IMG/VR virus record: IMGVR_UViG_3300030117_003687
Span: 1-37,224 of that record
DNA from: a virus
Reading direction: 5' to 3' (one strand)
Length of the DNA stretch: 37,224 bases
Positions 4,794-35,544 of the stretch are shown in pieces. Position 1 is the stretch's first letter. Each line of letters opens with the position of its first letter. The position numbers and the translations under genes were made by a program. The notes beneath the pieces are model-generated. The model was not told the DNA's origin and did no database searches. It saw nothing but the letters and a program-made list of their open reading frames with translations.

Positions 4794-7700
4794 TTACCTT
4801 GGCCTATAAGGAGTATATCCACTTAATGCTGCAACACTTTTCGGTTGATAGTAAGGACCAATACGAGGACGAACTCTTTGTATCACGGTTCCTGCACCAT
4901 CGTCCTCTTTTTCATCAGGCATACAAACAAATTGCCCGTCTACTTTAACAGCGGTAAATCCATCTGGGCACTCGAAAGGAGGCTTATCGTCATCACCCTC
5001 TGGTAAAGTAACACCCGTATCATCTTCTCCTGCATCGTCATCAACAACGACTTCTACCTCTTCTTCTGGCACAACGACAGTGGTTGCCGTTCCTGGTGGT
5101 CCTACCACAGTGGTAGTGGTGTCTGTTCCAGTATCCCCTGTAACAGTAGTGGTTGCTGCTGGATCTATTACTGGATTTACTACAGCTGTAGATGTTGGGT
5201 CTATTGTTGCTATCCCCGTCGCAGTAGTATCAACAGGTACAACATTGTACGGAGTAATATCTATGGCATCGTCCCCTGGTCTAGAGGTTGTTGTTTCTGA
5301 TTGTCCTGAAATTACGGGAGCAGTGCCGTCTCCCGGATCTCTTGGTACTGATATTTCTGTGCCCCCAACATTTGGAAGTGCAGGAGAAACAGCACTTGGT
5401 TGTGCCAAGCTAGTAATCTCAGGTATAGATAATCCAGTAGACTCAGAAATTTGAGATACTGTATTTGGAGAAAGACTACCTGTCGATGCTATCTCACTTT
5501 GTATAATATCTTGTATCGCCATAATCTCCATGCTCGTCGGGCCTTGATAGCTAGGAAGAGCAGGAGGAACATTTGATGGCAATGTCAACCCAGAAGGAAG
5601 ACCCTCTATATTAGGTTGAGTAAACATAGAAGGATCATATGGTGGCAATGAAGGTATTGAAGATGGTTGAGCAGTGCCCGATAAATCCATCTCAAGTTGA
5701 ATGTTTGGATCAATAGAAGTTTCAATATTAGGTAACGCAGAAAATCCCCCCGGTGCGGTTAATGCATCAGGTGGACCCGGAAATTGAAAACGAGGATCAA
5801 CAGCAACAGAAGAAATACCTCCACCCGTTGTCACATCAGGTGTTAGAGAACTCGGAGGTGTATACGACCCCATAAACTGACCCGGTTCCATGTTTAGTTG
5901 AAAATTAGGATCAAGCGTTTGTATCCCCTCTAATCCCGCAGGGGTCTCTATACTTGGACCAAGAGCCTCGGGGCTAACTCCTCCAAGAACAGCTGCTTGA
6001 ACTCCTGCATCAGCACTAATTGACGGAATACTTGTAGAAATTTGAGGAGCAGTGCCTGTTGTGCCTGTTTGAGTTTGAACTCCAGAACGAGTTCCTATTA
6101 ACGGAACACCTGTACCCGTTGCTATAATGCCCTCTCCAACAGCCTGTTTAGGATCAACTTGTCCAGTTCCTGCTAATTGTTGAACAACAGATTGTGCTGT
6201 CTCTGTCGCCCCTTCAAGAGCAGGTGCTATAATTTTTCCACCTTTTAAAACAGGAATAGCATTAAGAGCACCGTTAGCTAAACTCGCCGTTGTAGCATAA
6301 GTCCAATCCGAAGCATTTGGACTTGTACGCCCACTTAACGCAGCTCTTTCAAAAGCAATAGGACCTAATATTTGAGCAACTTCGGGAATAGCAGCACCAA
6401 CACCACTCGCAATCATTTGAGTTGTTGCTCCTGCTCCTAAAGCAAGAGCACCTTTACCAGCGGCATAAGCTGTTCCAATCGCAGCTACTAAATTAGGTAA
6501 TTGTTCTAAAACAGCACCAGGTAACTTTTCATAGTTAAAATTAAGAAGTCCTTCTTGTCCCTCCTTTGTAGCAGCAGCTAATGATGGATCAACCTCACCT
6601 GGAGCAAAACCGATTGGAGCATTAAACTGATTTAAAAACTGAGAGGTTGCACTAGGACCATAATCATACCCTTCGGCAAAACTATTAAGAGCTCTTGCGG
6701 CGTTATCAAAACCAAGGGCCTCCATTGTGGTTCCCACGGCAGAAGCACCTTGTTGCAGCCCTCCGTACATTGTATTTAAAGGATCTACTGTATATTGATC
6801 AGCACCAACTACTGGAGATATAACAGATCCTAAAATCGCACTTCCACCACCTATAAGATTTTTCTCATCTATGCCAGCAACAGCCCTCCGCTCTTCTTCA
6901 GCTTGCTCTGGCGTATAAGCTACTCCCCTAGAAGGATCATAAATTAAGCCCTGTTCAATTTCACTTAATCTTTGACCTATGTCTGCTCTACCAGCACCAT
7001 ATTGTGCTAATTGTTCCGCATACCCTGGAGCAAGTTGGTCAGACGGAACAGGGGCTGCCTCCGCAGAACCAAAAAAGTTTAATGGATTTAAATCGCTTAA
7101 CGAAAAGTTTAAACCAGCTGTTTCCACTGGTTCAGGCTCAACCCTCTTTAAATCTTCTGCATATTGAGCCAAAGATTTTTTGTTCCTATCTGAAGGATTA
7201 TATTGACCTCCCGAGTTAACAAAGTCCGTCGCCCCTTGCACACCGCCAAGATGTGCCGCTGCACGAAAACCATCTCGGTCTATTCCTGTTTCAGCCAAGG
7301 CAATAGGATCAAGAGCATCGTATGCTTTATCAATGTCGCCTATATGCCATAAATTAACCTTATCCTGAAGATCATTGTCCTGTACAAATTCAGAAAGCTG
7401 TATATCTGTGTTGTTCTCTCTGTTGTAATCATCTAATCGTGGTTGACCAAACTGAAGAAGACCCGAGTACCCTAACTCATTCACACTTTGATAATCTCCC
7501 GTGCCTATCTGCCCCGGAGTGCCGCTCTCAAAAGAAGCAAGTTTCTGAATAAACTCTTCTGGAGGTGACCCCTCATCTTTAAAAGCACCAGAGGCCAATG
7601 CGTTTTGTGTAAAAGCTAACTCTTCCCCAGGACCTACACCTTGGGCAACGGCCTGTGGAATAAGATCCCCGAACCTATCACCCTCGGGAGTAACCATGTC

Positions 7701-9941
7701 AGGAGACAGTGTAAGACTGCCGTCTTGAACAGGAGCCGCAGGTAAAGCACCAGGGGCAAAGGTTCCAGGACCACCTATAGGAAGTGTAGGGTCAGGAGTG
7801 GGGTCAGGAGCAGATGGTAATTGATAATCACCTAAAACACCAAGGTTCCTTGCATTCTCAGGGTCTATTTGAGGAACAACCTGACCAAAAGTCGGAGAAG
7901 CAGGATCATCATCACGAGCATAAGGAACAGTTAAAGGTCCAAGAGACGGGTCAAATACTTCCGCAATATCCTGACCAGCCATTTTAAATCGTTCAATATT
8001 ACCTAAATCATAATACTTATCTACAGCATTAGGATCTCCAGGAAACAATCTTTCTGCTTCCGTCTTAACCTGATCCCTAAGTCTTTGGTTCCTTGCAGCC
8101 TCACGCTCGTCTTTTCTCTCCTCTTTCCTTTCTTGAGCTCTTCTAGCCGCAGCCTGATCTTTAAGATACTGAGACACAAGCTCACTGTCCTCACCACCAA
8201 ATTGATCGTAAACCTTCTGTACTTCCTGATTCCTTAATTGATTCTTTAAAGCTCTTATTTTGTCGTTACCGCTCTCTCCACTCAAATTAAGAGAATCAAG
8301 ACCAAGAGCGTCAGCAGTTTCATCTCTATCTAAACGTTCTCCGTCTTTATAAAACTTAACGCTGTTGCCTGATCGAACCGCAACAACATTGTCATATTTT
8401 TCACCAAGATCATACTCAAATGCTTTTTTATCTCCATAGGTAACACCTGTAAGATCACTTTCTTTGTTCTTGTATCGAGTTCCAGTGCCAATATCTAAAT
8501 CTTTCACAGCATCAAGGGCCGAGGTCAAATCATCCATTGTCTGGGCAGGGGCAGCGTCAGCAGGAGGAGCCACTGGAGCCGTGCCCTCTAAACTTGCAAG
8601 ATATTGTTCATACGCTCTTCCTGTAGTACCGCTCGAAAATTCTGTACCGTCAGAAGCCGTGTACATATCCATCGTGCCAAAAGAAGGTAAGTTTTTATAA
8701 AAGTCTGATTCAAGAAAACCAGGATCACCTTGAAAACCCGGGACTGCTGGAGGGGCCGCCGGGGGTGCCGCCGGAGCATCCGTCGCTATTACACCACCAG
8801 GACCAGGGGCCGGGGGTGGAGCTGCTGGAGCCACAGGTGGAGGAGTGGGTGCTTGGGGAGGAGGAGCAGAAACAGGATCGCCAGAAAAAGTAGCAGGAGC
8901 AACATTCATCGTCTGCATCTGCGGAGGAGGAGAAGGAACTTCTTGAGCAGCCTGATTAGCTAAATATCCAGCTTGAGCAGACTTAAAATCAGCACTCGGT
9001 CCTATTCCTACATCACTAGGAGCAGGAGGCGTATATAAACCAGTAAAAGCACCCTTCTCATCTACCGTGTATTGTTGACCACCATAACCAGAAGCCTCAT
9101 CCAAGGTTCTGATCTCTTGACCACCAGCTCCATGAGTATGAACAACACCACCCTCGTGCATCGCAACCGGGATTAATGTGCCAGAAGGGCCTAAGAGCTT
9201 ATTCTCTTGCATCTTGAACCCATGTTTCTTTACCAGTAAATCTGCTATCTTTGGTGAAATAGTAGGTGACACATTGCCTCCCTCTGCAAAGTCATACTCT
9301 GTTCCTGAAGCAACCTCTCCTTCTTTCAGTCTGCTAACAGAAGGATAGACCTCGTCTCTAAGTCCTGGTTTACCTCTTAAATTTACCTGAAGTCCTCTTT
9401 TCTTCATTAACTTTTGTGCTTCTTGAGAAGTTATATTTCCTTTTCCATACTGTCCTAATATTGCCTCGGTTGTAGCATCATATGGAGCAGACACCTCAAC
9501 TTCATCTCCTACTTTTTTCTTTTCTAAAGGAGGCGGTTGAAACCTTCCTTTCTCTAAATAATCATCTATTCTTTTTCTTTCAGCCCTATTCATTTGACTT
9601 AAAAATTCACCCGGACCCAAGTCATTCATGTCTTCTGAAAAGTAACCCTGTGGGTCATCTTTTAAACCAGTAGGTACTTCCATCCTATTTCTTGCTCCGG
9701 CTCTTATCGCCCTTGCCGCTGCATCACCAACAAAAGGAATTAATCCTAGTATTGCAGCTCCACCCAAAGCTCCAATTAAAAAATAATTTGGATTAGGTTT
9801 TTTAATTTCCTCATATATTTCTTCAGCAGCCATTGCATCCCCTACAAGGGGAGTAGCTTCAGCTAAGAAAGTTCCAAGGCTCCCTAATCTTTCTCTGGTT
9901 TTTTCGCCTTCAAAAGGATTAGTACTAAACGAACCATCCAT
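4794..9941 (-). CDS. giant internal virion protein with lysozyme-like domain
   Basis: 1715 aa, first gene of the left late operon, start supported by AGAGGA upstream of the ATG at 9941. In order: a hydrophobic helix at about 50-75 (FLIGALGGAAILGLIPFVGDAA); a mixed region; a Pro/Ala-rich linker at about 335-410; a charged helical stretch at about 590-640; a muralytic-type segment at about 790-935 with FESG, NELGYSGLLQFGQPRLDDYNR-like core and WHIGDIDKAYDAL; Gly/Ala-rich hydrophobic segments at about 1175-1300; then a Ser/Pro/Thr-rich tail and a Thr/Val-rich acidic stretch before the C-terminus. The FESG...YSGLLQFG pattern resembles transglycosylase domains of phage virion proteins. By analogy with T7 gp16, it may be packaged and ejected to breach the wall. 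The catalytic residue assignment is inference. Confidence 0.75.
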   Translation of the reverse strand: MDGSFSTNPFEGEKTRERLGSLGTFLAEATPLVGDAMAAEEIYEEIKKPNPNYFLIGALGGAAILGLIPFVGDAAARAIRAGARNRMEVPTGLKDDPQGYFSEDMNDLGPGEFLSQMNRAERKRIDDYLEKGRFQPPPLEKKKVGDEVEVSAPYDATTEAILGQYGKGNITSQEAQKLMKKRGLQVNLRGKPGLRDEVYPSVSRLKEGEVASGTEYDFAEGGNVSPTISPKIADLLVKKHGFKMQENKLLGPSGTLIPVAMHEGGVVHTHGAGGQEIRTLDEASGYGGQQYTVDEKGAFTGLYTPPAPSDVGIGPSADFKSAQAGYLANQAAQEVPSPPPQMQTMNVAPATFSGDPVSAPPPQAPTPPPVAPAAPPPAPGPGGVIATDAPAAPPAAPPAVPGFQGDPGFLESDFYKNLPSFGTMDMYTASDGTEFSSGTTGRAYEQYLASLEGTAPVAPPADAAPAQTMDDLTSALDAVKDLDIGTGTRYKNKESDLTGVTYGDKKAFEYDLGEKYDNVVAVRSGNSVKFYKDGERLDRDETADALGLDSLNLSGESGNDKIRALKNQLRNQEVQKVYDQFGGEDSELVSQYLKDQAAARRAQERKEERKDEREAARNQRLRDQVKTEAERLFPGDPNAVDKYYDLGNIERFKMAGQDIAEVFDPSLGPLTVPYARDDDPASPTFGQVVPQIDPENARNLGVLGDYQLPSAPDPTPDPTLPIGGPGTFAPGALPAAPVQDGSLTLSPDMVTPEGDRFGDLIPQAVAQGVGPGEELAFTQNALASGAFKDEGSPPEEFIQKLASFESGTPGQIGTGDYQSVNELGYSGLLQFGQPRLDDYNRENNTDIQLSEFVQDNDLQDKVNLWHIGDIDKAYDALDPIALAETGIDRDGFRAAAHLGGVQGATDFVNSGGQYNPSDRNKKSLAQYAEDLKRVEPEPVETAGLNFSLSDLNPLNFFGSAEAAPVPSDQLAPGYAEQLAQYGAGRADIGQRLSEIEQGLIYDPSRGVAYTPEQAEEERRAVAGIDEKNLIGGGSAILGSVISPVVGADQYTVDPLNTMYGGLQQGASAVGTTMEALGFDNAARALNSFAEGYDYGPSATSQFLNQFNAPIGFAPGEVDPSLAAATKEGQEGLLNFNYEKLPGAVLEQLPNLVAAIGTAYAAGKGALALGAGATTQMIASGVGAAIPEVAQILGPIAFERAALSGRTSPNASDWTYATTASLANGALNAIPVLKGGKIIAPALEGATETAQSVVQQLAGTGQVDPKQAVGEGIIATGTGVPLIGTRSGVQTQTGTTGTAPQISTSIPSISADAGVQAAVLGGVSPEALGPSIETPAGLEGIQTLDPNFQLNMEPGQFMGSYTPPSSLTPDVTTGGGISSVAVDPRFQFPGPPDALTAPGGFSALPNIETSIDPNIQLEMDLSGTAQPSSIPSLPPYDPSMFTQPNIEGLPSGLTLPSNVPPALPSYQGPTSMEIMAIQDIIQSEIASTGSLSPNTVSQISESTGLSIPEITSLAQPSAVSPALPNVGGTEISVPRDPGDGTAPVISGQSETTTSRPGDDAIDITPYNVVPVDTTATGIATIDPTSTAVVNPVIDPAATTTVTGDTGTDTTTTVVGPPGTATTVVVPEEEVEVVVDDDAGEDDTGVTLPEGDDDKPPFECPDGFTAVKVDGQFVCMPDEKEDDGAGTVIQRVRPRIGPYYQPKSVAALSGYTPYRPR

Positions 9942-12222: not shown

Positions 12223-12518
12223 AGTCTAGAGCCGTGATGCCCCTCAAATAAAAATAGGTGCTTGGTCGTGAGGTGCTTGACCAAGTAAAAACTTTTGCCC
12301 TTTTTCGCAAAATATGCCATGTGCCACGCTATTTGATGAGGAGTAATATTTACCTTATTGGTTTTCGTTGTCTTTAATTCTATCCAAAAAGGTAAACCAT
12401 CCAAAACTAAATGAACGTCTGGAACACCCCCTCCGACTTTCGATTCAATTCTATTTGCTAGGCAATCTCTAGGCAGATTGTTTTTTATCTGTTTCCAAAA
12501 GTTCGACTCGCTGGGCAT
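12102..12518 (-). CDS. VRR-NUC domain nuclease
   Basis: 138 aa. The PD-(D/E)xK core is visible as GGGVPDVHLVLDGLPFWIELK, with D34, E47 and K49 as the expected metal-binding/catalytic residues, an upstream Glu in NRIESKVGGG (E25) and a conserved Gln in TPHQIAWH (Q62). VRR-NUC proteins cut branched or Holliday-type DNA. In phages they may resolve replication intermediates before packaging. The start has GAGGTAAAGG just upstream and overlaps the end of the small terminase gene by 50 bp. The last 40 or so residues (LRLGWGVYND... LASLFDALRADLRLYFASLFE) are encoded by the GACGCAA repeat array, so the C-terminus appears repeat-derived. Confidence 0.88.
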   Translation of the reverse strand: MPSESNFWKQIKNNLPRDCLANRIESKVGGGVPDVHLVLDGLPFWIELKTTKTNKVNITPHQIAWHMAYFAKKGKSFYLVKHLTTKHLFLFEGHHGSRLLRLGWGVYNDGIGSRFEDLASLFDALRADLRLYFASLFE

Positions 12519-13008
12519 CCTTTACCTCCTCAAACTCTGCGTCAACAACAAATGCTTGGGGGTACTGCTTTTGCAATGCAAGCAGTCGAGCCGTGATCTC
12601 ATCTCTAGAAAGTTGATCCAAAGTATTGATTGTTTCACGTCTATCAATAGTCAAACCCCCAAGAGCTGATCTTATCTTCTCAGCGTTAATACTTGCTGAA
12701 AATTGTCCAGCCTCTTCAGCCCCAAGGCTAAGTTTATGAAGTCGTTCAAGTTGACCAATAGTTGTCACTCCATAGCGTCTCTCTCGCTCTTGTCTCAGCT
12801 CGGTAATGTACTCAACGACATGAGGATAATCTCTACCATTTAAAAGTCTGGAGGCATACTCATTGGCGAGGTCTTGAGAATAGCCAGCCTTTCTCGCACA
12901 TTCTGTGTTCGAGTAGATGCCCTCAACAATGTGCCGAGAGAAAGTCATCTGTCTGTTAGTAAGTTTTCTGTCATTTTTCTTTTCTACTTTCTTCCTGATA
13001 GAAGGCAT
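12469..13008 (-). CDS. terS: terminase small subunit
   Basis: 179 aa. The ATG at 13008 is chosen because GGAG lies at proper spacing; a TTG two codons upstream is less likely. Residues about 18-60 form the DNA-binding helix-turn-helix with LTNRQMTFSRHIVEGIYSNTECARKAGYSQ, typical of the Terminase_2/XtmA family. An oligomerisation part follows with ITELRQERERRYGVTTIGQLERL and a Glu/Asp-rich C-terminus likely to contact TerL. It should recognise the packaging site and start packaging. Unlike most phages it is not next to TerL but 7.7 kb away, paired with a VRR-NUC nuclease under its own promoter region. Confidence 0.88.
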   Translation of the reverse strand: MPSIRKKVEKKNDRKLTNRQMTFSRHIVEGIYSNTECARKAGYSQDLANEYASRLLNGRDYPHVVEYITELRQERERRYGVTTIGQLERLHKLSLGAEEAGQFSASINAEKIRSALGGLTIDRRETINTLDQLSRDEITARLLALQKQYPQAFVVDAEFEEVKDAQRVELLETDKKQSA

Positions 13009-13037
13009 TTGCAAATCTCCAAATGTTTAAAAATTAT

Positions 13038-13309
13038 GAGACAAAGCATAGTCAAAAGGTCTGTCTCTATCAACCCTCGGGGACAGTAAAGTGTCCCCAA
13101 ACGGCAAAAACGTGTTTTTACAAAACATCAATTATAGGGGTTTTAGCCAGAGAAGTGTCCCCGTGTCTCAGGTTTGTCTCCAGATTTTTGTCTATAAGCA
13201 CCTTATTTTATTGAGTTGGGGACAGTGATGACAGTGGGGACACTAGATTCGAATTCATTTTTCAAAAAAAAAAAATCTGTGGCTAGGGGTTATATGTCAC
13301 TTTGTCTCC
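13038..13309. repeat. array of ten GRGACA / TGTCYC sites
   Basis: Forward GRGACA at 13038-13043, 13080-13085, 13219-13224 and 13237-13242. Reverse TGTCYC at 13062-13067, 13092-13097, 13156-13161, 13164-13169, 13175-13180 and 13303-13308. Two form a perfect palindrome, GGGGACA-6 bp-TGTCCCC (13079-13098). The pair at 13218/13236 is a direct repeat with an 18-bp period. About 0.3 such sites would be expected by chance in this length, so this is a genuine cluster, probably operators or iterons. Confidence 0.85.
13045..13073 (-). promoter_or_regulatory. sigma70-like promoter for terS-nuclease operon
   Basis: On the minus strand: TTGATA (13068-13073), 17-bp spacer, TATGCT (13045-13050), with the terS ATG at 13008. 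A TGTCTC site lies at 13062-13067, in the spacer directly beside the -35, and a GAGACA site sits just downstream of the -10, so binding there should repress it. Confidence 0.55.
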
Positions 13310-13390
13310 AAAGTACTTGCATATATGTTCTAGTTGTGGTTTAGTTGTGTATATAGAAAAAGTGATTCTATTTTTATTAGGAGAAAATCA

Positions 13391-13840
13391 ATGAACAGAA
13401 TTAAAATCAATCGTAGATTAGCCGAAGCTAAAACTTTTTTATGTTTTTTCCCTGACGTTGTTGAACGTAAGGGTTTAAGTAAGGCGAAGAAATGGGCGAA
13501 GAAATTTTTCAAGGATGAGATGCGCTGGATGGAGGACGATTTGGCTAGTAAGGACGATTTGAGGAAGTATATTGATTCTCGAACCGAGGACAATCAGGTC
13601 GCTATCATGATGAGTGGGATCGATTGTGATGGCGTTGAGTGGTCAAATGCTCCTTCCATTATGGACAACCCCAGCGTTCAGAAAATCATGAAATTTGAGA
13701 GGGAGTATTATGAGTATGCTGACGGGTCAAAAAATTGGGGTCTTTGTAAGCCTTCGACCGTTGTGGGAGTGCGATCTACGTCTAGGGATTTAGCGACTGA
13801 GGCTTACGAGAATGGGCATCCTCACGTTTTATACACATAG
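13391..13840 (+). CDS. hypothetical protein, 149 aa
   Basis: The start at 13391 is chosen for TAGGAGAAAATCA upstream; the frame is open further 5' but without a ribosome site. The N-terminal 60 residues are very basic and helical (KINRRLAEAK, GLSKAKKWAKKFFKDEMRW). The remainder contains DDLRKYIDSRTEDNQ, EREYYEYADGSKNWGLCK and RSTSRDLATEAYENGHPH. The basic start suggests nucleic-acid binding, but no family is recognised. First gene of the 13.4-14.7 kb group, directly behind the GRGACA array. Confidence 0.65.
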   Translation: MNRIKINRRLAEAKTFLCFFPDVVERKGLSKAKKWAKKFFKDEMRWMEDDLASKDDLRKYIDSRTEDNQVAIMMSGIDCDGVEWSNAPSIMDNPSVQKIMKFEREYYEYADGSKNWGLCKPSTVVGVRSTSRDLATEAYENGHPHVLYT

Positions 13841-15397: not shown

Positions 15398-16032
15398 TGC
15401 CAAATATATGCAGAAATTGGGCTAGATTTAGCCACAAAGACCCGAAGAAGTTTCAAGAACTATGCAACGCTATTACAAAAAGCGAATTGTGTTCTTATAT
15501 AATGCCCGAGCCTGACTACAAAAAAACTGTAGTCATGCCGACATACCCACACATATCAGGAAACGAGCCAGTTGATCCGAGTTCTGCTTGGTGGGATTGG
15601 CGAGTACAAAATTGGGGAACAAAATTGGAGTTAAATTTACGAGATGGTTTTTCTGACATTTGTCCTAATACAAATACTGCTTCCATAAATTTTGAGAGTG
15701 CATGGTCTCCACCCATTGGAATCTATAACAAGGCCGTCGAGCTTGGTTTTGAAGTTGAGGCCGAGTATGACGAGCCTGGGATGGATTTTTGTGGACGATA
15801 CATTAATGGGAAAGACGAGTGTATAAGAACGTCCGATAGTTTTAGAGAGGGTACGATGCCCAAATGGGCGTTGGACGATTATGGCGATAGAACTTGGGAA
15901 GGCATGGTTGATTGTGGGGAGATCGACAACGAAGGCAATCTTTTTGATTACGAGACCAAGTTAATGCTCAAAAAGCATGGTGAGTGGGGTCACGTTGAGT
16001 TTAACAAAAGAATGTTGGAGCTGGGGTCATGA
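15397..16032 (+). CDS. API92-like ferredoxin-fold protein
   Basis: 211 aa. MPNICRNWARFS at the N-terminus, NWGTKLELNLRDGF at about 70-83 and INFESAWSPPIGIYNKAVEL at about 97-116 are the signatures of the API92-like/DUF1281 family: MPNxCxN, NWGTKxD and F-x-T/S-AWSPP. The family is widespread in phages and integrative elements. It has a ferredoxin-like fold and no proven role. The C-terminal portion with GRYINGKDECIR and DRTWEGMVDCGEID extends beyond the core. Coupled to both neighbours by TAATG and ATGA overlaps. Confidence 0.82.
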   Translation: MPNICRNWARFSHKDPKKFQELCNAITKSELCSYIMPEPDYKKTVVMPTYPHISGNEPVDPSSAWWDWRVQNWGTKLELNLRDGFSDICPNTNTASINFESAWSPPIGIYNKAVELGFEVEAEYDEPGMDFCGRYINGKDECIRTSDSFREGTMPKWALDDYGDRTWEGMVDCGEIDNEGNLFDYETKLMLKKHGEWGHVEFNKRMLELGS

Positions 16033-16628
16033 CCTTAATTATCCGAGAAACCACGATGCAGAGTGCCAATGCTTTTATTAAAAAGTATCACAGGCACTCT
16101 GACATAGTACCAGCCCAACTGATGCACATATCTTTTGAGCTAATTGAATATCTCCATGTAGTCGATGGAAGCGTTCTCAAATACGCTAACAGAATTGGCG
16201 TTGCAATATTTGGTTATCCAAGTGGTCGATTTCATAACCAAGATATAATCGAATTAAGGCGAGTATGTTTTTCACCTGACGAACAGTTTTCTCAATTTAA
16301 AAACTGGTATCCTTCCGAGCGAGTGAAAAAATCTAAAAACAGCCCTAGTTTGAAAAATATTGCGATGATCGAACAGCTTTATGATACTCCACTTTCATTA
16401 TTGCCTGGAATAATGTGCAAAGCCTGGACCGTACCATCAAATTTTTTATTGTTTATCGAGCATATTGTAAGGCGTAGGTTTCCAGAATTTACTAGGATTG
16501 TGACTTACATTAGGCAGCATGAAAACGGCTCCTATTTAAAGAATGCTGGGTATTACATTGACAAACATTTTGAGAGAGGTGGTTCAAAAAAGTACAGATT
16601 AATGAAAGAGATAGGAGATTTATCATGA
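16029..16628 (+). CDS. Mom/XF1762-like GNAT-fold protein, possible DNA modifier
   Basis: 199 aa. The N-terminus has ANAFIKKYHRHSDIVPAQ (about 13-30), matching the A-x-x-F/W-I/V-x-x-x-HRH opening of XF1762/Mu Mom-like proteins. The core continues with IGVAIFGYPSGR (about 56-67), IIELRRVCF (about 73-81) and FTRIVTYIRQHENGSYLKNAGY (about 154-175), the GNAT-type strand and acyl-CoA loop region. Mu Mom converts adenine to a carbamoylmethyl derivative in DNA. Whether this homologue does the same is inference. An insertion at about 125-150 distinguishes it from short family members. A putative orphan methyltransferase lies 2.9 kb downstream. Confidence 0.7.
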   Translation: MTLIIRETTMQSANAFIKKYHRHSDIVPAQLMHISFELIEYLHVVDGSVLKYANRIGVAIFGYPSGRFHNQDIIELRRVCFSPDEQFSQFKNWYPSERVKKSKNSPSLKNIAMIEQLYDTPLSLLPGIMCKAWTVPSNFLLFIEHIVRRRFPEFTRIVTYIRQHENGSYLKNAGYYIDKHFERGGSKKYRLMKEIGDLS

Positions 16629-19345: not shown

Positions 19346-19540
19346 ATGAAGAAAAAAAACAATGTCGATAATGCCACACTTTCTGAAAATCCTCGACACA
19401 AATATAGAACTGTGGCTTTACTTTTAAAAGATTATGCTTTTTTAAAAGAGATAGCTGACGATGAGCAACGTTCTATGGCTCGTCAGTTGTCGGTGATTAT
19501 AAGAAAGGAATACGAATCCCTTCATGGGAAAGCGATCTAA
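19346..19540 (+). CDS. ribbon-helix-helix (Arc/CopG-like) DNA-binding protein
   Basis: 64 aa. After a basic, disordered start, KYRTVALLLKDYAFLKEIAD gives a beta strand followed by helix 1, and EQRSMARQLSVIIRKEYESL gives helix 2, the RHH spacing. AAAGGATACACA supports the start. RHH dimers repress promoters by binding short inverted repeats. Its own promoter and the phage control regions are plausible targets. Its 3' end overlaps the methyltransferase by 17 bp. Confidence 0.72.
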   Translation: MKKKNNVDNATLSENPRHKYRTVALLLKDYAFLKEIADDEQRSMARQLSVIIRKEYESLHGKAI

Positions 19541-20072
19541 TTTTGAGCGGGTAGAAAGAGACTTTTATCCCACACCTTTTCAAGCAGTCAAACCTCTCCT
19601 ACCACATTTATCAGAGAAAGAGTTCTTTGTTGAACCATGTGCCGGGGACGGTACTCTTGTGGATCATCTAGAAAAGAACAATATGAAATGCATATTTCAA
19701 TCGGACATTGAGCCAAGACGCAAGAACATACTAGAGCTTGATGTATTTAAACTTGATGCTATGCAGTTTTTAAATGCTGATTTAATTATTACTAATCCAC
19801 CTTGGGATCGAAAGATATTGCACCCTTTAATTCTGCATTGCATTCAGTTGTTACCAACATGGTTGCTGTTTGATGCTGATTGGATGCACACCAAACAGGC
19901 CGCTGACTATCTGCCTTATTTAAAAAAGATTGTTAGTGTTGGTCGGGTTAAATGGATACCTGATTCTGAAAGCACTGGAAAAGATAATTGTTGTTGGTAC
20001 TATTTTGATAAATATAGTAAAGCAACGTGTGCTTCTTTTTATGGTAGACTTTCAAATGGTCGGTTGTTATAG
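19524..20072 (+). CDS. orphan SAM-dependent DNA methyltransferase-like protein
   Basis: 182 aa. DFYPTPFQAVKPLL at about 13-26 is the usual opening of phage DNA-methylase-like proteins. FVEPCAGDGTLVDHL (about 35-49) is the SAM-binding motif I, and LIITNPPW (about 87-94) is motif IV with NPPW, typical of N6-adenine or related amino-methyltransferases. No target-recognition domain or paired restriction enzyme is seen. DNA, RNA or protein could be the substrate, but self-protection of phage DNA is the usual reading. The start is not preceded by a strong ribosome site and probably relies on overlap with the RHH gene. A terminator follows. Confidence 0.78.
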   Translation: MGKRSNFERVERDFYPTPFQAVKPLLPHLSEKEFFVEPCAGDGTLVDHLEKNNMKCIFQSDIEPRRKNILELDVFKLDAMQFLNADLIITNPPWDRKILHPLILHCIQLLPTWLLFDADWMHTKQAADYLPYLKKIVSVGRVKWIPDSESTGKDNCCWYYFDKYSKATCASFYGRLSNGRLL

Positions 20073-23421: not shown

Positions 23422-24951
23422 ATGTCTGAGGCAGAGCAGTTGCTTGCAGTATTTCAAGGATCAAAAGCCGCTCACGGTCAAACAATACTGGGACGTGTTG
23501 GTCGGAATGGTAAGACCGAGGCCAACAGTACCGTGGTTCGAGAGCCGTTGACCGTGGATAAAGTACAAGCCCACATAGATGGGAAACACGGCGTTGGTTC
23601 AATCCCTATAACGCAGGATAACATGTGTAAGTTTGGAGCATTGGACATTGATACCTATGACCTTGATCACAAAAGCTTAAATAAAAAGATACTTAAATTA
23701 AAACTTCCTTTGTTGTTATGTCGATCCAAGTCAGGTGGTGCCCATTTGTTTTTGTTTTTAAAGGATTGGGAACCTGCGTCTTTGGTTCGAGAATATTTAA
23801 CAGAGATGTCTATAACCCTGGGACATTCGGGCTGCGAGATTTTTCCAAAACAGGACAAGATACTTGCGGATCGTGGTGACGTTGGAAACTTTATTAACAT
23901 GCCATACTTTAAGGCTGACCTGACAACAAGGTATTGTTTGAATAAGGACGGTGAAGCCATGAGCCTTGTCGAGTTTTTTGAAGCTGTTAAGAAGAAGCGT
24001 ATTTCTGTGTCTGAGTTAAACTCGTTTCAGTTTGCCGGAAAGAGAGAACACTTTGTTGATGGTCCATATTGCCTGGAGGTTATATCAAGTCTTGGTCCGG
24101 TCAGTGAAATGAGAAACATTTTTATGTTTGCCGTTGGGGTATACTGCCGATACAAGTGGCCCGACGATTGGAAGAAGCACCATGAAGAATATAACAGGAT
24201 GCTTTGCTCTCCTTCTCTCGACGCAAAAGAAATCGTGCAGATACAGGAGTCTTTACAGAAGAAAGAATACTTTTATCAGTGTGAAGTGTGTCCACTGAAG
24301 GATCACTGCGATAAAGATATATGTAAGACCCGGCCCTTTGGCGTTGGGAGCTCGGCTCCTGATACCCCTGACCTTGGGGGATTGACGATCATGTTATCAG
24401 AACCTCGGTTATACTTCATGGATGTAAATGGCAAGCGGGTGCAGCTATCGACAGAGCAACTACAGAACCAGCTGCTGTGGCAGAGGGCTTGTATGGAACA
24501 GATCCAAACTATGCCGCCTACAGTAAAGCCACAGAAGTGGCAGATGTTGGTTAGTCTTCTGATGGATAAGTCTACACAGCTCGAGGTTCCAGAAGAGTTG
24601 ACCTTGACAGGACAGTTTAAAGAACTGTTGAAGACTTATTGCACGAGCCGGATTAAAGCTATGGCTCCTGAAGAAATGGAGATGGGCAAACCTTGGACAG
24701 ACGAGGGTCTCACAAGGTTTACGATTGCAGGACTTATGCAGTTCCTCAAGAACCGTGGGTTTACTTCTTATTCAAGAGCCCAGGTGCAAGAACAAATAAA
24801 ACATTTGAATAACGGACAAGAATGTTTTGGTAGATACAACGTCCGAAATGCAGACGGTAAAAGAATCCAACTACGAGTGTGGTGGGTTCCATCGTTTGAA
24901 GAGAATGAAGGTGAAACTGAAAAGGAGATACTAGATGACATACCCTTCTAG
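23422..24951 (+). CDS. AEP-superfamily (TOTE-type) DNA primase
   Basis: 509 aa. FGALDIDTYD (D75, D77) provides the first metal-binding DxD motif, CRSKSGGAHLFLFL (about 97-110) the S-x-H nucleotide-binding motif, and GDVGNFINMPYF the third block, as in archaeo-eukaryotic primases of the TOTE-conflict type. A Cys-rich knuckle, CEVCPLKDHCDKDIC, at about 290-304 probably binds zinc. The C-terminal 180 residues are helical (winged-helix-like). The very end, EKEILDDIPF, copies the bacterial SSB tip. It synthesises primers for replication. GGAGGAGAAT supports the start. The HTH gene overlaps its 3' end by 17 bp. Confidence 0.85.
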   Translation: MSEAEQLLAVFQGSKAAHGQTILGRVGRNGKTEANSTVVREPLTVDKVQAHIDGKHGVGSIPITQDNMCKFGALDIDTYDLDHKSLNKKILKLKLPLLLCRSKSGGAHLFLFLKDWEPASLVREYLTEMSITLGHSGCEIFPKQDKILADRGDVGNFINMPYFKADLTTRYCLNKDGEAMSLVEFFEAVKKKRISVSELNSFQFAGKREHFVDGPYCLEVISSLGPVSEMRNIFMFAVGVYCRYKWPDDWKKHHEEYNRMLCSPSLDAKEIVQIQESLQKKEYFYQCEVCPLKDHCDKDICKTRPFGVGSSAPDTPDLGGLTIMLSEPRLYFMDVNGKRVQLSTEQLQNQLLWQRACMEQIQTMPPTVKPQKWQMLVSLLMDKSTQLEVPEELTLTGQFKELLKTYCTSRIKAMAPEEMEMGKPWTDEGLTRFTIAGLMQFLKNRGFTSYSRAQVQEQIKHLNNGQECFGRYNVRNADGKRIQLRVWWVPSFEENEGETEKEILDDIPF

Positions 24952-25156
24952 ACATCTGATGAGAATATCAGAGGTGACAAACTGGCTTGGTGTATCCAGG
25001 TCTTGGGTCTACGAACACGTTAAAGACGGCACGTTTCCAGAGCCTATTATATTAGGCCAGGACGACGGTAAGCGTAGTGCGAGTAGGTGGGACAGGGAAA
25101 AGATACAGAAGTGGCTAGACGAGCGTCCTCGTGGAGTACAGACGGATGCAGAATAG
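24935..25156 (+). CDS. AlpA/excisionase-like HTH protein
   Basis: 73 aa. MRISEVTNWLGVSRSWVYEH (from residue 9) is a MerR/AlpA-type helix-turn-helix, followed by VKDGTFPEPIILG and a wing/second helix with SASRWDREKIQKWLDERP. This is the Phage_AlpA/excisionase signature. The start at 24935 has AAGGAGATACTAG upstream; the ATG at 24959 lacks a ribosome site. It may regulate transcription, or act as an architectural replication factor, since no integrase is seen. Confidence 0.82.
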   Translation: MTYPSRHLMRISEVTNWLGVSRSWVYEHVKDGTFPEPIILGQDDGKRSASRWDREKIQKWLDERPRGVQTDAE

Positions 25157-33194: not shown

Positions 33195-34406
33195 CTAAGG
33201 TTTCTTGAGAAGTTTACCTGAATTTTTGTCTCTAAAAACAGTCCCAGAAGTCAACTCATCATATTCTTCTTTAGTGCCTATAATTTTAACAGAACCACCA
33301 AGCCTATCTTCTGTAATGTCTATTGCTCTCCTAGACAAAGGAGCTATTCTAGAAGCTACTTCTTGTGCCGCTTCATCTGCTTGTTCGGGAGACATTCTTT
33401 CTCCAGTATCAGGATCTACCTTACTTATGTTTTCTGCAAAAAGAGCAGCATACGCAGCGTCATACGTTTTATCTGCCTCTTTAGTTACCTCGTCTTGCTT
33501 GTCCATTGCATAAAGAGAACTTTCCGCATACGCCCGAGAAGGAAAAGGACTTTTACTAGCAGCTTCTGCAAACCCTTGCCTCATCTGAAACCTTAAAGCC
33601 TCTTTCTCTTGAGGAGATAAACCCTTATCAACCGTTACCTCCTCTAGTCCTTCAGGTATTCCTTCATCCTCAAACAAACTTCCTATTGCTTTATCGCCAT
33701 AATACAACCCAGCTCCTGTTAAAATAGGGTTTCTTCTCATTGCTCTTAAAGTTTTACCCACAGGTCCTGTGGGTTTGCCACCACCAACTTTTCCTCTTAA
33801 AGCATCAATACCTCTTCCGACAGTAGCCCCTGCAAGACGATCTACTTTACTTATAGCTTTTTCAAAACCTGCTGGACCTTTTCCCCCGATACCTGATCTA
33901 GGTCTTCCTTGTAAAGAACGTGCAATACGAGGGAGATATTGTAATCCTCGTTGAACTAATGCTCCAGCAAAATAGTTACTTGGATAAGCATTCATAATGC
34001 CACCTGTTGCCGCCATTCGCACAGGCATGTTCATTTGAGGGGGCTGTCCCATCTGAGGTCGTTGCCCCATCTGAGGCTGCATTCTCATTTGAGGGGGCTG
34101 TCCCATTTGAGGAGGCTGTCCCATTTGAGGAGGCTGTCCCATCTGGGGTTGCATTCTCATCTGAGGCTGCATTCTCATTTGAGGAGGAGACATTGGTTTA
34201 CCAGGAGGTATAATAGGTTGAAAGGGAACAGGGTTCATCATTCCCTGACCCGTCATCTTTTCAACAGTAGCACTTGGAGCACCACCCATAACAGCGTTCA
34301 TAAGTTCTTCAGAAGATCCCATAATGCCACCCATTTTTTTAAGGGCGTTTCTTGCTTCTTGGTTTTTCTTTCTAAATAAACTTCTGTTATTAACATCTGT
34401 TGCCAT
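33195..34406 (-). CDS. virion-associated protein with Pro-Gln-Met repeats
   Basis: 403 aa. The ATG at 34406 (MATDVNNRSL) follows the upstream stop by 1 base, with GGAG upstream; an earlier frame start at 34418 is less likely. Residues about 70-125 are low-complexity PQMGQP/PQMRMQ hexapeptides from an 18-bp DNA repeat. Then come hydrophobic MAATGGIMNAYPSNYFAGAL, a Gly/Arg-rich part, and an acidic helical C-terminus (EVASRIAPLSRRAIDITEDR). It lies between other virion genes and is probably an internal or tail-associated structural protein. Catalytic motifs are not seen. Confidence 0.65.
   Translation of the reverse strand: MATDVNNRSLFRKKNQEARNALKKMGGIMGSSEELMNAVMGGAPSATVEKMTGQGMMNPVPFQPIIPPGKPMSPPQMRMQPQMRMQPQMGQPPQMGQPPQMGQPPQMRMQPQMGQRPQMGQPPQMNMPVRMAATGGIMNAYPSNYFAGALVQRGLQYLPRIARSLQGRPRSGIGGKGPAGFEKAISKVDRLAGATVGRGIDALRGKVGGGKPTGPVGKTLRAMRRNPILTGAGLYYGDKAIGSLFEDEGIPEGLEEVTVDKGLSPQEKEALRFQMRQGFAEAASKSPFPSRAYAESSLYAMDKQDEVTKEADKTYDAAYAALFAENISKVDPDTGERMSPEQADEAAQEVASRIAPLSRRAIDITEDRLGGSVKIIGTKEEYDELTSGTVFRDKNSGKLLKKP
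34041..34184. repeat. 18-bp coding minisatellite, eight units
   Basis: Eight contiguous 18-bp units on the plus strand, such as AGGCTGTCCCATTTGAGG, with two unit classes (GGCTGTCCCAT... and CTGCATTCTCAT...) interspersed. They encode PQM(G/R)-containing hexapeptides on the minus strand. In-frame unit length means gain or loss of a unit would not disrupt the gene. Confidence 0.88.
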
Positions 34407-34407
34407 G

Positions 34408-35544
34408 TTACACTCCACTCACGTTTCTAAGACCACCCAGTCCACCAAGTTGTTGTTGTGCTGAATATCCTGCAACATTTCCTAAGAAAGAAGATACAGG
34501 ATTAGGTCTTGGTATACTAGACATTGTCATTGTTTGTGCCGTGGAAGGAACGCCCCTAAATATATCAGACATATATGAAAAACGTTGAAAGGGTTCATAT
34601 GCTTCTTCTATGGCCCCAGCCCTCTGCACATCATATTCTGCTTGTCTCTGTGCTTGCTCTAAGGAACCAACATTAAACAAGGCATTAATATCTCGTTGTG
34701 CCGCAGATTGTGCTGCTTCCCCAAGAGCACCTTGCTTCACACCAAGCCCTGCAATACCCTGACCCAAAGAACCAAACAATTGTGATGCTGTTTGTCCTCT
34801 GTTCATTTGGTTTTCAAACGCAGATTGTGCTTGCTGTTGAGCACCTGTGTAAGCCTGTGATCGTAGCTGTGCACCCACTCGTGCTTTTCTATCGTCTATG
34901 TTTCTTTGTAACTCTTGCTCTGTAACCGCTTGTCGAGATCCACCAAAGGCTCCGGAACGAACAGCTTGAGCTCGATCACCAATTCCTGCTATATCCCCGG
35001 CTCTTTGAATGTCTGCTTGTGTTGTATCAATTACTTCCTCTACAAACGGATCATAAAACTCTTTATATGAAGTGGGATCATATGCCCCTGTTGTACTGTC
35101 TAAAGTAGTCCCAGCCTTTCTATAAGATTCAAGACCCTCGCCCAAGGTACTGGCAGCTTGTTCCATCATAGGTTGATATAAACCTATACCACCTCCAACT
35201 CTTTCTCCGGTTTCAGGGTCAACAGTTCCTGTCATTAATTCTATGGCTCTTTGTTGAGCCGGAGTAAACTGCATAATGTCAGGTCGAGGAACACCGCCTT
35301 GAACTTGTTGTATCGGTTCACCATATTGATCGTATCTTACATTACCTTCCTGATCTAACTCATAAACAGGATTACCTTCTTCGTCTGTTACAGGAACACC
35401 GTATAACGGAGACGTGGCAGCAATGCCTGTAGGTTGACCTGTCTCAGGATCAACTTGATAAACATTTGCTAGAAGGTCTTTAAGAAATCGTTCTTGATAG
35501 TCAGGAAGATATTGACCACTTAACTGTACATACTGTTCAGCCAT
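34408..35544 (-). CDS. virion structural protein with GAFGGSRQ motif
   Basis: 378 aa. An N-terminal YLPDYQERFLKDLLANVYQ is followed by TPAQQRAIELMTG, a PFVEEVIDTTQADIQRAGDI helix, VRSGAFGGSRQAVTEQELQR, a Gln/Ala-rich helical stretch with YTGAQQQAQSAFENQ, and a C-terminal PFQRFSYMSDIFRGVPS. I recall the SGAFGGSRQ block from internal virion proteins of environmental podo-like phages. A packaged, mostly helical protein is likely, but the exact location is unproven. TAATG junction with the upstream gene. Confidence 0.7.
   Translation of the reverse strand: MAEQYVQLSGQYLPDYQERFLKDLLANVYQVDPETGQPTGIAATSPLYGVPVTDEEGNPVYELDQEGNVRYDQYGEPIQQVQGGVPRPDIMQFTPAQQRAIELMTGTVDPETGERVGGGIGLYQPMMEQAASTLGEGLESYRKAGTTLDSTTGAYDPTSYKEFYDPFVEEVIDTTQADIQRAGDIAGIGDRAQAVRSGAFGGSRQAVTEQELQRNIDDRKARVGAQLRSQAYTGAQQQAQSAFENQMNRGQTASQLFGSLGQGIAGLGVKQGALGEAAQSAAQRDINALFNVGSLEQAQRQAEYDVQRAGAIEEAYEPFQRFSYMSDIFRGVPSTAQTMTMSSIPRPNPVSSFLGNVAGYSAQQQLGGLGGLRNVSGV

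Follow-up and report, generated by a model that had tools for sequence, protein, structure and literature searches.

The alpha protein of satellite phage P4 is a primase that itself binds short ori/crr repeats and carries its own SF3 helicase. Rep primases of the ColE2/ColE3 type act in an origin-specific manner, and the iterons of geminiviruses covary with residues of their initiator, Rep. The ColE2/ColE3-type Rep belongs to the AEP-type primases and has an HTH region at its C-terminus (PMC5304414, PMC5862659). Mobile-element AEP primases (PolpTN2-like, PrimQH) combine an AEP domain with a C-terminal winged helix, and this winged helix has been speculated to recognise the replication origin (Kazlauskas et al. 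2018, PMC5862659). In geminiviruses, the positions and the pattern of the iterons are conserved while their sequences are diverse even between close relatives (PMC12548392), and Rep contains an iteron-related domain (PMC2974675). In the system formed by the PLE satellite with its RepA and iterons, Vibrio phage ICP1 and the nuclease Odn, the initiator and the origin change jointly in a modular manner, and attack directed at particular iteron sequences can favour their diversification (PMC8263062).

Here, we analysed a stretch of 37,224 bp (IMG/VR virus record IMGVR_UViG_3300030117_003687; "the window"). A search of a phage collection gave no match to it at the DNA level. Bacterial-genome matches came for the most part from MAG/SAG contigs of various taxa and point to no particular host. 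Upstream of terS, the window carries an array of short sites which, judged by sequence comparison, very probably serves a marine phage family as an iteron-like replication origin bound by the C-terminal winged helix of the phages' own AEP primase. The preliminary description had offered two readings, an iteron origin and a regulator array. The covariation of the words with the primase and the layout of the sites support the former, and the latter is kept as the lesser rival. Calling the array an origin depends on the identity of its reader, the primase, and on the layout.

The resemblance to P4 alpha lies in a primase that would bind origin repeats; the difference is that the helicase is here a separate UvrD-like gene. 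With the PolpTN2-like and PrimQH proteins, the phage primase shares the AEP domain and the C-terminal winged helix, but it is without a recognisable fused helicase domain. STY4665 (2ipq), the template used for modelling by Kazlauskas et al., is also among the weak fold matches of its C-terminal domain (PMC5862659). Origin recognition was a structural guess in that work (PMC5862659), whereas the phages studied here provide natural words, a residue-base correlation and blind predictions in its support. Geminivirus iterons resemble the array in their fixed layout and variable sequence, but Rep is an HUH endonuclease for rolling-circle replication of small ssDNA genomes, and no protein family is common to both. 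In PLE, a RepA_N initiator is paired with iterons of about 30 bp in few variants; here, an AEP primase is paired with words of 7-8 bp in at least 16 variants. The ColE2/ColE3 origins belong to plasmids, are very small and lack a repeat array, unlike the locus described here.

The site array between terS and the divergent gene

All ten GRGACA/TGTCYC sites reported previously are present in 13038-13308, at 13038+, 13062-, 13080+, 13092-, 13156-, 13164-, 13175-, 13219+, 13237+, and 13303-. The local excess over chance was also confirmed. When the window was simulated 300 times with an order-2 Markov model, any stretch of 272 bp carried five sites at most, compared with ten in 271 bp of non-coding DNA, a cluster of short repeats as in an iteron origin. 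The window-wide GRGACA count proposed as a check gave 40 matches against 34.4 ± 6.1 expected and hence no genome-wide excess; 10 of the 40 lie within 271 bp. Elsewhere, in 34045-34140, three of four further GGGACA matches (minus strand) are 18 bp apart (34099, 34117, and 34135). They belong to a coding gene (33195-34418) and represent a short tandem repeat in a protein that is unrelated to the array.

Two details had to be revised. What had been taken for a perfect palindrome at 13079-13098 is really an inverted repeat with perfectly matching 7-bp arms, GGGGACA-N6-TGTCCCC, whose 6-bp spacer is asymmetric. The 18-bp spacing of the direct repeat at 13218/13236 was found as described, but 18 bp is not the basic period: it consists of two 9-bp steps with a degenerate site between them, as relatives show three intact sites at a 9-bp pitch. 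The true unit of the array in the window, in GT orientation, is YGTC[CT]C(C/A).

The array fills the intergenic control region (13015-13390, no strand assigned), which we propose as the replication origin and which agrees in position and layout with about 80 relatives. On one side lies terS (12469-13014, minus strand; Terminase_2 by Pfam), used as locus marker, and on the other a divergent early gene on the plus strand, beginning at 13391, for which a search for relatives found none. Site list and relatives' layout together place an outer inverted site TGTCTCC (13303-13309, plus strand) at -35 from an A12 tract (13264-13275, plus strand). This tract corresponds to the conserved A/T tract found at the equivalent place in most relatives and is a putative DNA-unwinding element. 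The forward triplet, in terS orientation on the minus strand, comprises TGTCCCC (13236-13242), the degenerate TGTCATCA (13226-13233), and TGTCCCC (13218-13224). Its middle site is intact in many relatives and was assigned from the sequence and their 9-bp pitch; the other two were assigned, like the outer site, from site list and layout. The same holds for the inverted triplet on the plus strand, with TGTCTCC (13175-13181), TGTCTC (13164-13169), and TGTCCCC (13156-13162).

Between the triplets and the extra sites, a candidate -10-like TATAAT facing terS (13131-13136, minus strand) was picked by eye from the sequence, and the array overlaps it. The four extra sites, taken from the site list and given for the plus strand, are TGTCCCC (13092-13098) and GGGGACA (13079-13085), which are the right and left arms of the inverted repeat, TGTCTC (13062-13067), and GAGACA (13038-13043), which adjoins the terS start. 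The GC skew changes sign at 10-13 kb, near the array, but it follows gene direction.

Layout and words in the relatives

We took as relatives the best 80 of at least 428 TerS relatives in IMG/VR. The closest among these 80 (L002, L003, L004, and L006) have ten sites each. The others of the 80 are without the GRGACA motif, yet they carry an array with a different word at the equivalent place, so that a terS-upstream array is present in about 80 related phages. Lack of conservation in relatives had been named as a result that would speak against the array. The letters are indeed not conserved but the layout is, and judging by letters would wrongly dismiss the array, since the word appears to co-diversify with its reader.

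In GT orientation, the words are GTCYC (the window and L003 types), GTAAACA, GTAATCA, GTAAATA, GTAAATC, GTAATAG, GTACTCA, GTCCTCA, and GTCCTAA, and further GTCATCA, GTCATCC, GTCATGA, GTATCCA, GTTCTCA, TGACTCA, and GTACTA, with at least 16 variants in the family. The layout runs from an A/T tract through three forward sites at 9-bp pitch and about 40 bp to three inverted sites. Counted from the tract, most relatives have one inverted site near -35, forward sites near +30/+39/+48, and further inverted sites near +90/+100/+109. The window follows this core, with the middle forward site degenerate and four extra sites added towards terS; the layouts of G029, G034, G078, and G136 differ from it. 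Thus, as in iteron origins, spacing and orientation are conserved between replicons in most relatives, and an AT-rich element, an A or T run of 5-26 bp, lies beside the repeats.

Array alignments show how the words differ within kept surroundings. L069 (GTCCTCA) and L072 (GTACTCA) have near-identical spacers, and C is replaced by A at word position 3 in nearly every site. In the pairs G005/G006 and L024/L029, most of the spacer sequence is kept and the sites are changed. Such concerted rewriting of sites needs one reader with a changed preference. Mixed arrays occur in the window (GTCCC and GTCTC) and in G042 (GTTCTCA and GTACTCA) and may be intermediate states of word change.

Upstream of terS in G155 (L424), G164 (L426), G136 (L427), and further phages, ACTATAG often follows the outer site, and past the inverted triplet there is a CTATATAG-like motif. 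These two are retained where the words differ and are perhaps promoter elements. No obvious array was seen at terS of HTVC027P, DSL-LC04, 023Pt_psg01, and ct3Et533. The cultured Pelagibacter phage HTVC023P has a TAGGAA cluster upstream of terS (L480, 11468-11770) with seven copies in 200 bp, compared with at most six per 200 bp in 30 simulations. Its primase C-terminus was not recognised by the domain profile, being too diverged. HTVC023P, with its cluster at about 11.6-11.8 kb of MN698239, is a candidate cultured model for the array.

The AEP primase and its covariation with the word

The proposed word reader and initiator is an AEP primase(-polymerase) of 509 amino acids (23422-24951, plus strand), encoded about 10 kb from the array and assigned by Pfam (AEP-TOTE), phrog_21866 (primase), and a fold match. 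The N-terminal part matches the folds of CRISPR-associated prim-pol (CAPP) and RepB', and D75, D77, and H108 are invariant in 66 sequences, as expected for an AEP enzyme. The P4 alpha type has an SF3 helicase in the same protein; in the phage primase, Pfam recognises only AEP-TOTE. It gave no match to PriCT (PriCT-1/2, a domain between AEP and winged helix). A separate UvrD-like helicase gene lies downstream, and PolA polymerase is encoded alongside.

AlphaFold, run on the window primase with 65 relatives (mean pLDDT 85), predicts a C-terminal winged-helix domain (residues 430-490; 24709-24891, plus strand), which covaries with the word. The domain is composed of a strand (430-433), two helices (435-444 and 452-462), and a two-strand wing (469-475 and 481-490), and a model of the domain alone agrees in topology with the full-length model. 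When the domain alone was compared with known folds, the winged-helix matches were weak, with a best Z of 4.2 and every Foldseek E at 0.3 or above, and a profile search of solved structures by sequence found no match. Among the loci gathered here, neither stand-alone copies nor nuclease fusions of the domain were found.

Comparing G005 with G006 gene by gene, we noticed that the differences in the AEP primase are nearly all close to the C-terminus, and across nine phages this C-terminal stretch varies with the word. Columns were then scored in 31 distinct phages with array and primase on one contig, using the normalised mutual information between the variable primase columns (380) and each word position. 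The best columns for positions 3, 5, and 6 are all in the C-terminal domain. The correspondences below were counted in 40 phages.

Residue 473 (codon 24838-24840, plus strand) is located in the first wing strand of the models and is the best primase column for word position 5 (0.75; next 0.43). Ala or Ser occurs with A (14/14), Asn with T (18/19), His with C (6/6), and Tyr with T in a single phage. The only miss at this position among the 40 phages is the window itself, which has N473 with C. The primases of L112, L392, L113, L114, L173, L207, and L360 have Arg (for example L112 and L392) or Gly (for example L113, L173, and L207) at this position and are so far without a known array; they would predict words so far unseen. 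For L420, with A473 and N483, the predicted word would be GTC?AC.

Residue 481 (codon 24862-24864, plus strand) is in the second wing strand and scores best for word position 6 (0.74; next 0.52). Arg is found with C in 35 of 35 cases; Lys, Thr, and Pro occur with other bases, and the single Phe and Ser cases are also with C. Residue 483 (codon 24868-24870, plus strand), in the same strand, is the best column for word position 3 (0.62; next 0.45). Thr goes with A in 31 of 32 cases, and Lys, Asn, Gln, Tyr, or Ile with C or T.

At position 4, there is no clear primase column, and helicase and PolA columns score above any primase column, a pattern we attribute to confounding with clade. The variation at position 7 is too small for interpretation. 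Two primase clades whose C-termini are very different show the same correspondence: GTAAACA accompanies A473 in both G004 and G040, and GTAATCA accompanies N473 in both G010 and G089. A partial Mantel test gave p = 0.0002, which is approximate because the 40 phages are related. Nearest-neighbour prediction from the similarity of the whole C-terminal domain was no better than from the N-terminal part at positions 4, 5, and 7; the covariation signal is in single columns.

For blind prediction, the rule was fixed before the arrays of records from later scans were examined. The set comprised 12 new records, some of them near-duplicates, with nine distinct domains. Position 5 was predicted correctly in 12/12, counting the near-identical G159/G160 (TGAC[TG]CA, with T or G at this base); in the first nine records, seven were right outright, in addition to G159/G160 with T or G. 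Position 6 was correct in 12/12 (9/9 in the first nine), including the non-trivial case of K481 with A, and position 3 in 11/12 (8/9), G136 being the miss. For G171, G172, and G175, the residues N473, K481, and T483 predict GT-A-?-T-not C, and the arrays read GTACTA. The automatic word finder presupposes exact repeats that start with GT; as it did not settle on a word for G159/G160 and G171/G172, these were read by eye. Hence, as in an iteron origin, a cognate initiator on the same replicon is suggested by a C-terminal domain that covaries with the word and predicts it.

An unsampled protein encoded among the small genes that occupy roughly 10 kb from the array to the primase could read the words while the primase 3' end merely travels along. 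The signal is residue-specific, is shared by two primase clades that are divergent, and allowed unseen words to be predicted, so we give this explanation hardly any credence.

Among the sampled proteins, no column of TerS, AlpA, helicase, PolA, Pam3-gp34-like, or DUF6378 beats the primase at positions 3, 5, and 6. The helicase is 88.8% identical between G005 and G006, but its columns remain below those of the primase at these positions.

Since the array abuts terS, its sites could form a packaging site of R-type elements (cosB/pac) that the small terminase reads as in lambda, with diverging specificity. The specificity of lambdoid cosB diverges similarly between relatives. A word read by TerS should change only with TerS, but L024 (GTAATCA) and L029 (GTAAACA) have identical TerS, and the TerS proteins within L069/L071/L072 and within L078/L079/L080 are near-identical with three words per set. 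TerS columns also track word positions 3 and 5 poorly. A packaging site is, hence, highly improbable.

A mini-protein had been suggested earlier as the binder, and an AlpA/HTH_17 gene (24935-25156, plus strand; Pfam) is indeed located between primase and UvrD helicase. The array would then be an operator for a small DNA-binding protein (AlpA-like HTH, RHH, or zinc-ribbon mini-protein). The DNA-reading residues of AlpA do not change with the word: a single residue differs between G005 (GTAATCA) and G006 (GTAAATC), and the recognition helix is common to several words. By tblastn, AlpA was found in 28 of the 31 paired records, and HTVC023P, which has an array, has no gene annotated between primase and helicase. 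The AlpA-like candidate was, thus, dropped, and we regard such an operator as very unlikely.

With the primase as reader, its domain might still bind the words for transcription control, as autoregulation or as an early/late switch at divergent terS promoters, and not for replication. The array does lie between divergent genes and overlap the -10-like sequence, and covariation tells who reads the words, not for what purpose. The reader, however, is a replicative primase encoded beside helicase and polymerase about 10 kb away, and what is kept across words is the geometry, with inverted triplets in pairs beside a conserved A/T tract, not promoter sequence. We consider transcription control as the sole purpose unlikely, although the sites could also, or instead, serve it.

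As a replication origin, the array would function as follows. The word (YGT and five variable letters) would be bound by the winged-helix domain of the primase, and the layout would load two primase arrays in opposing orientation next to a tract that melts easily. This would allow assembly of the UvrD-type helicase and the PolA polymerase, whose genes neighbour that of the primase. Physical binding, the residue-base contacts, and the start of replication at the array are what we infer from these patterns. If correct, this would be direct evolutionary evidence that origins are recognised by the C-terminal winged helix of mobile-element AEP primases, as has been guessed in the literature. It would also provide a natural code from residues to bases, with which the words of unseen phages can be predicted, and the origin locus of a widespread uncultured marine phage group.

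Joint change of word and primase domain

Close pairs differ in domain distance according to the word: 0-0.034 for the same word (n = 11) and 0.05-0.28 for different words (n = 22). G029 (GTCATCC) and G136 (GTACTCA) are 96-100% identical through primase and AlpA into the helicase, except for one 100-bp window at 78%, which is the wing. Synonymous divergence jumps at the wing from 0.086 to 0.40 in this pair, from 0.04 to 0.74 in G040/G160, and from 0.20 to 1.09 in G042/G155, which indicates exchange of the primase gene 3' end. The same-word pairs G165/G156 and G092/G096 show no such jump. In the smallest case, G084/G015, the aligned domain has three residue differences including T483N, and A is replaced by C at word position 3. 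Word and domain may, thus, diverge together via point changes, with every site rewritten at one letter, and also via exchange of the primase gene 3' end. G084/G015, G029/G136, and G040/G160 would offer natural near-isogenic alleles for studying how and why an initiator and many sites change together.

Tentatively, the origin words might be private identity tags under diversifying selection, so that the phages form replication-compatibility groups; we see this as possible but rather doubtful. Co-infecting relatives, satellites, and origin-directed nucleases that exploit a common origin would favour rare words, and the phages would keep rewriting all sites together with the matching primase wing.

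Further genes in the window include a Mom-like DNA-modification match (16029-16628; phrog_1384) and a DNA methyltransferase match (19524-20072; phrog_799), for which modification of the phage DNA is a possible role. Directly upstream of terL, 4794-9941 encodes a protein of 1715 amino acids, part of which is endolysin-like (phrog_26675) and which may be an internal virion protein.
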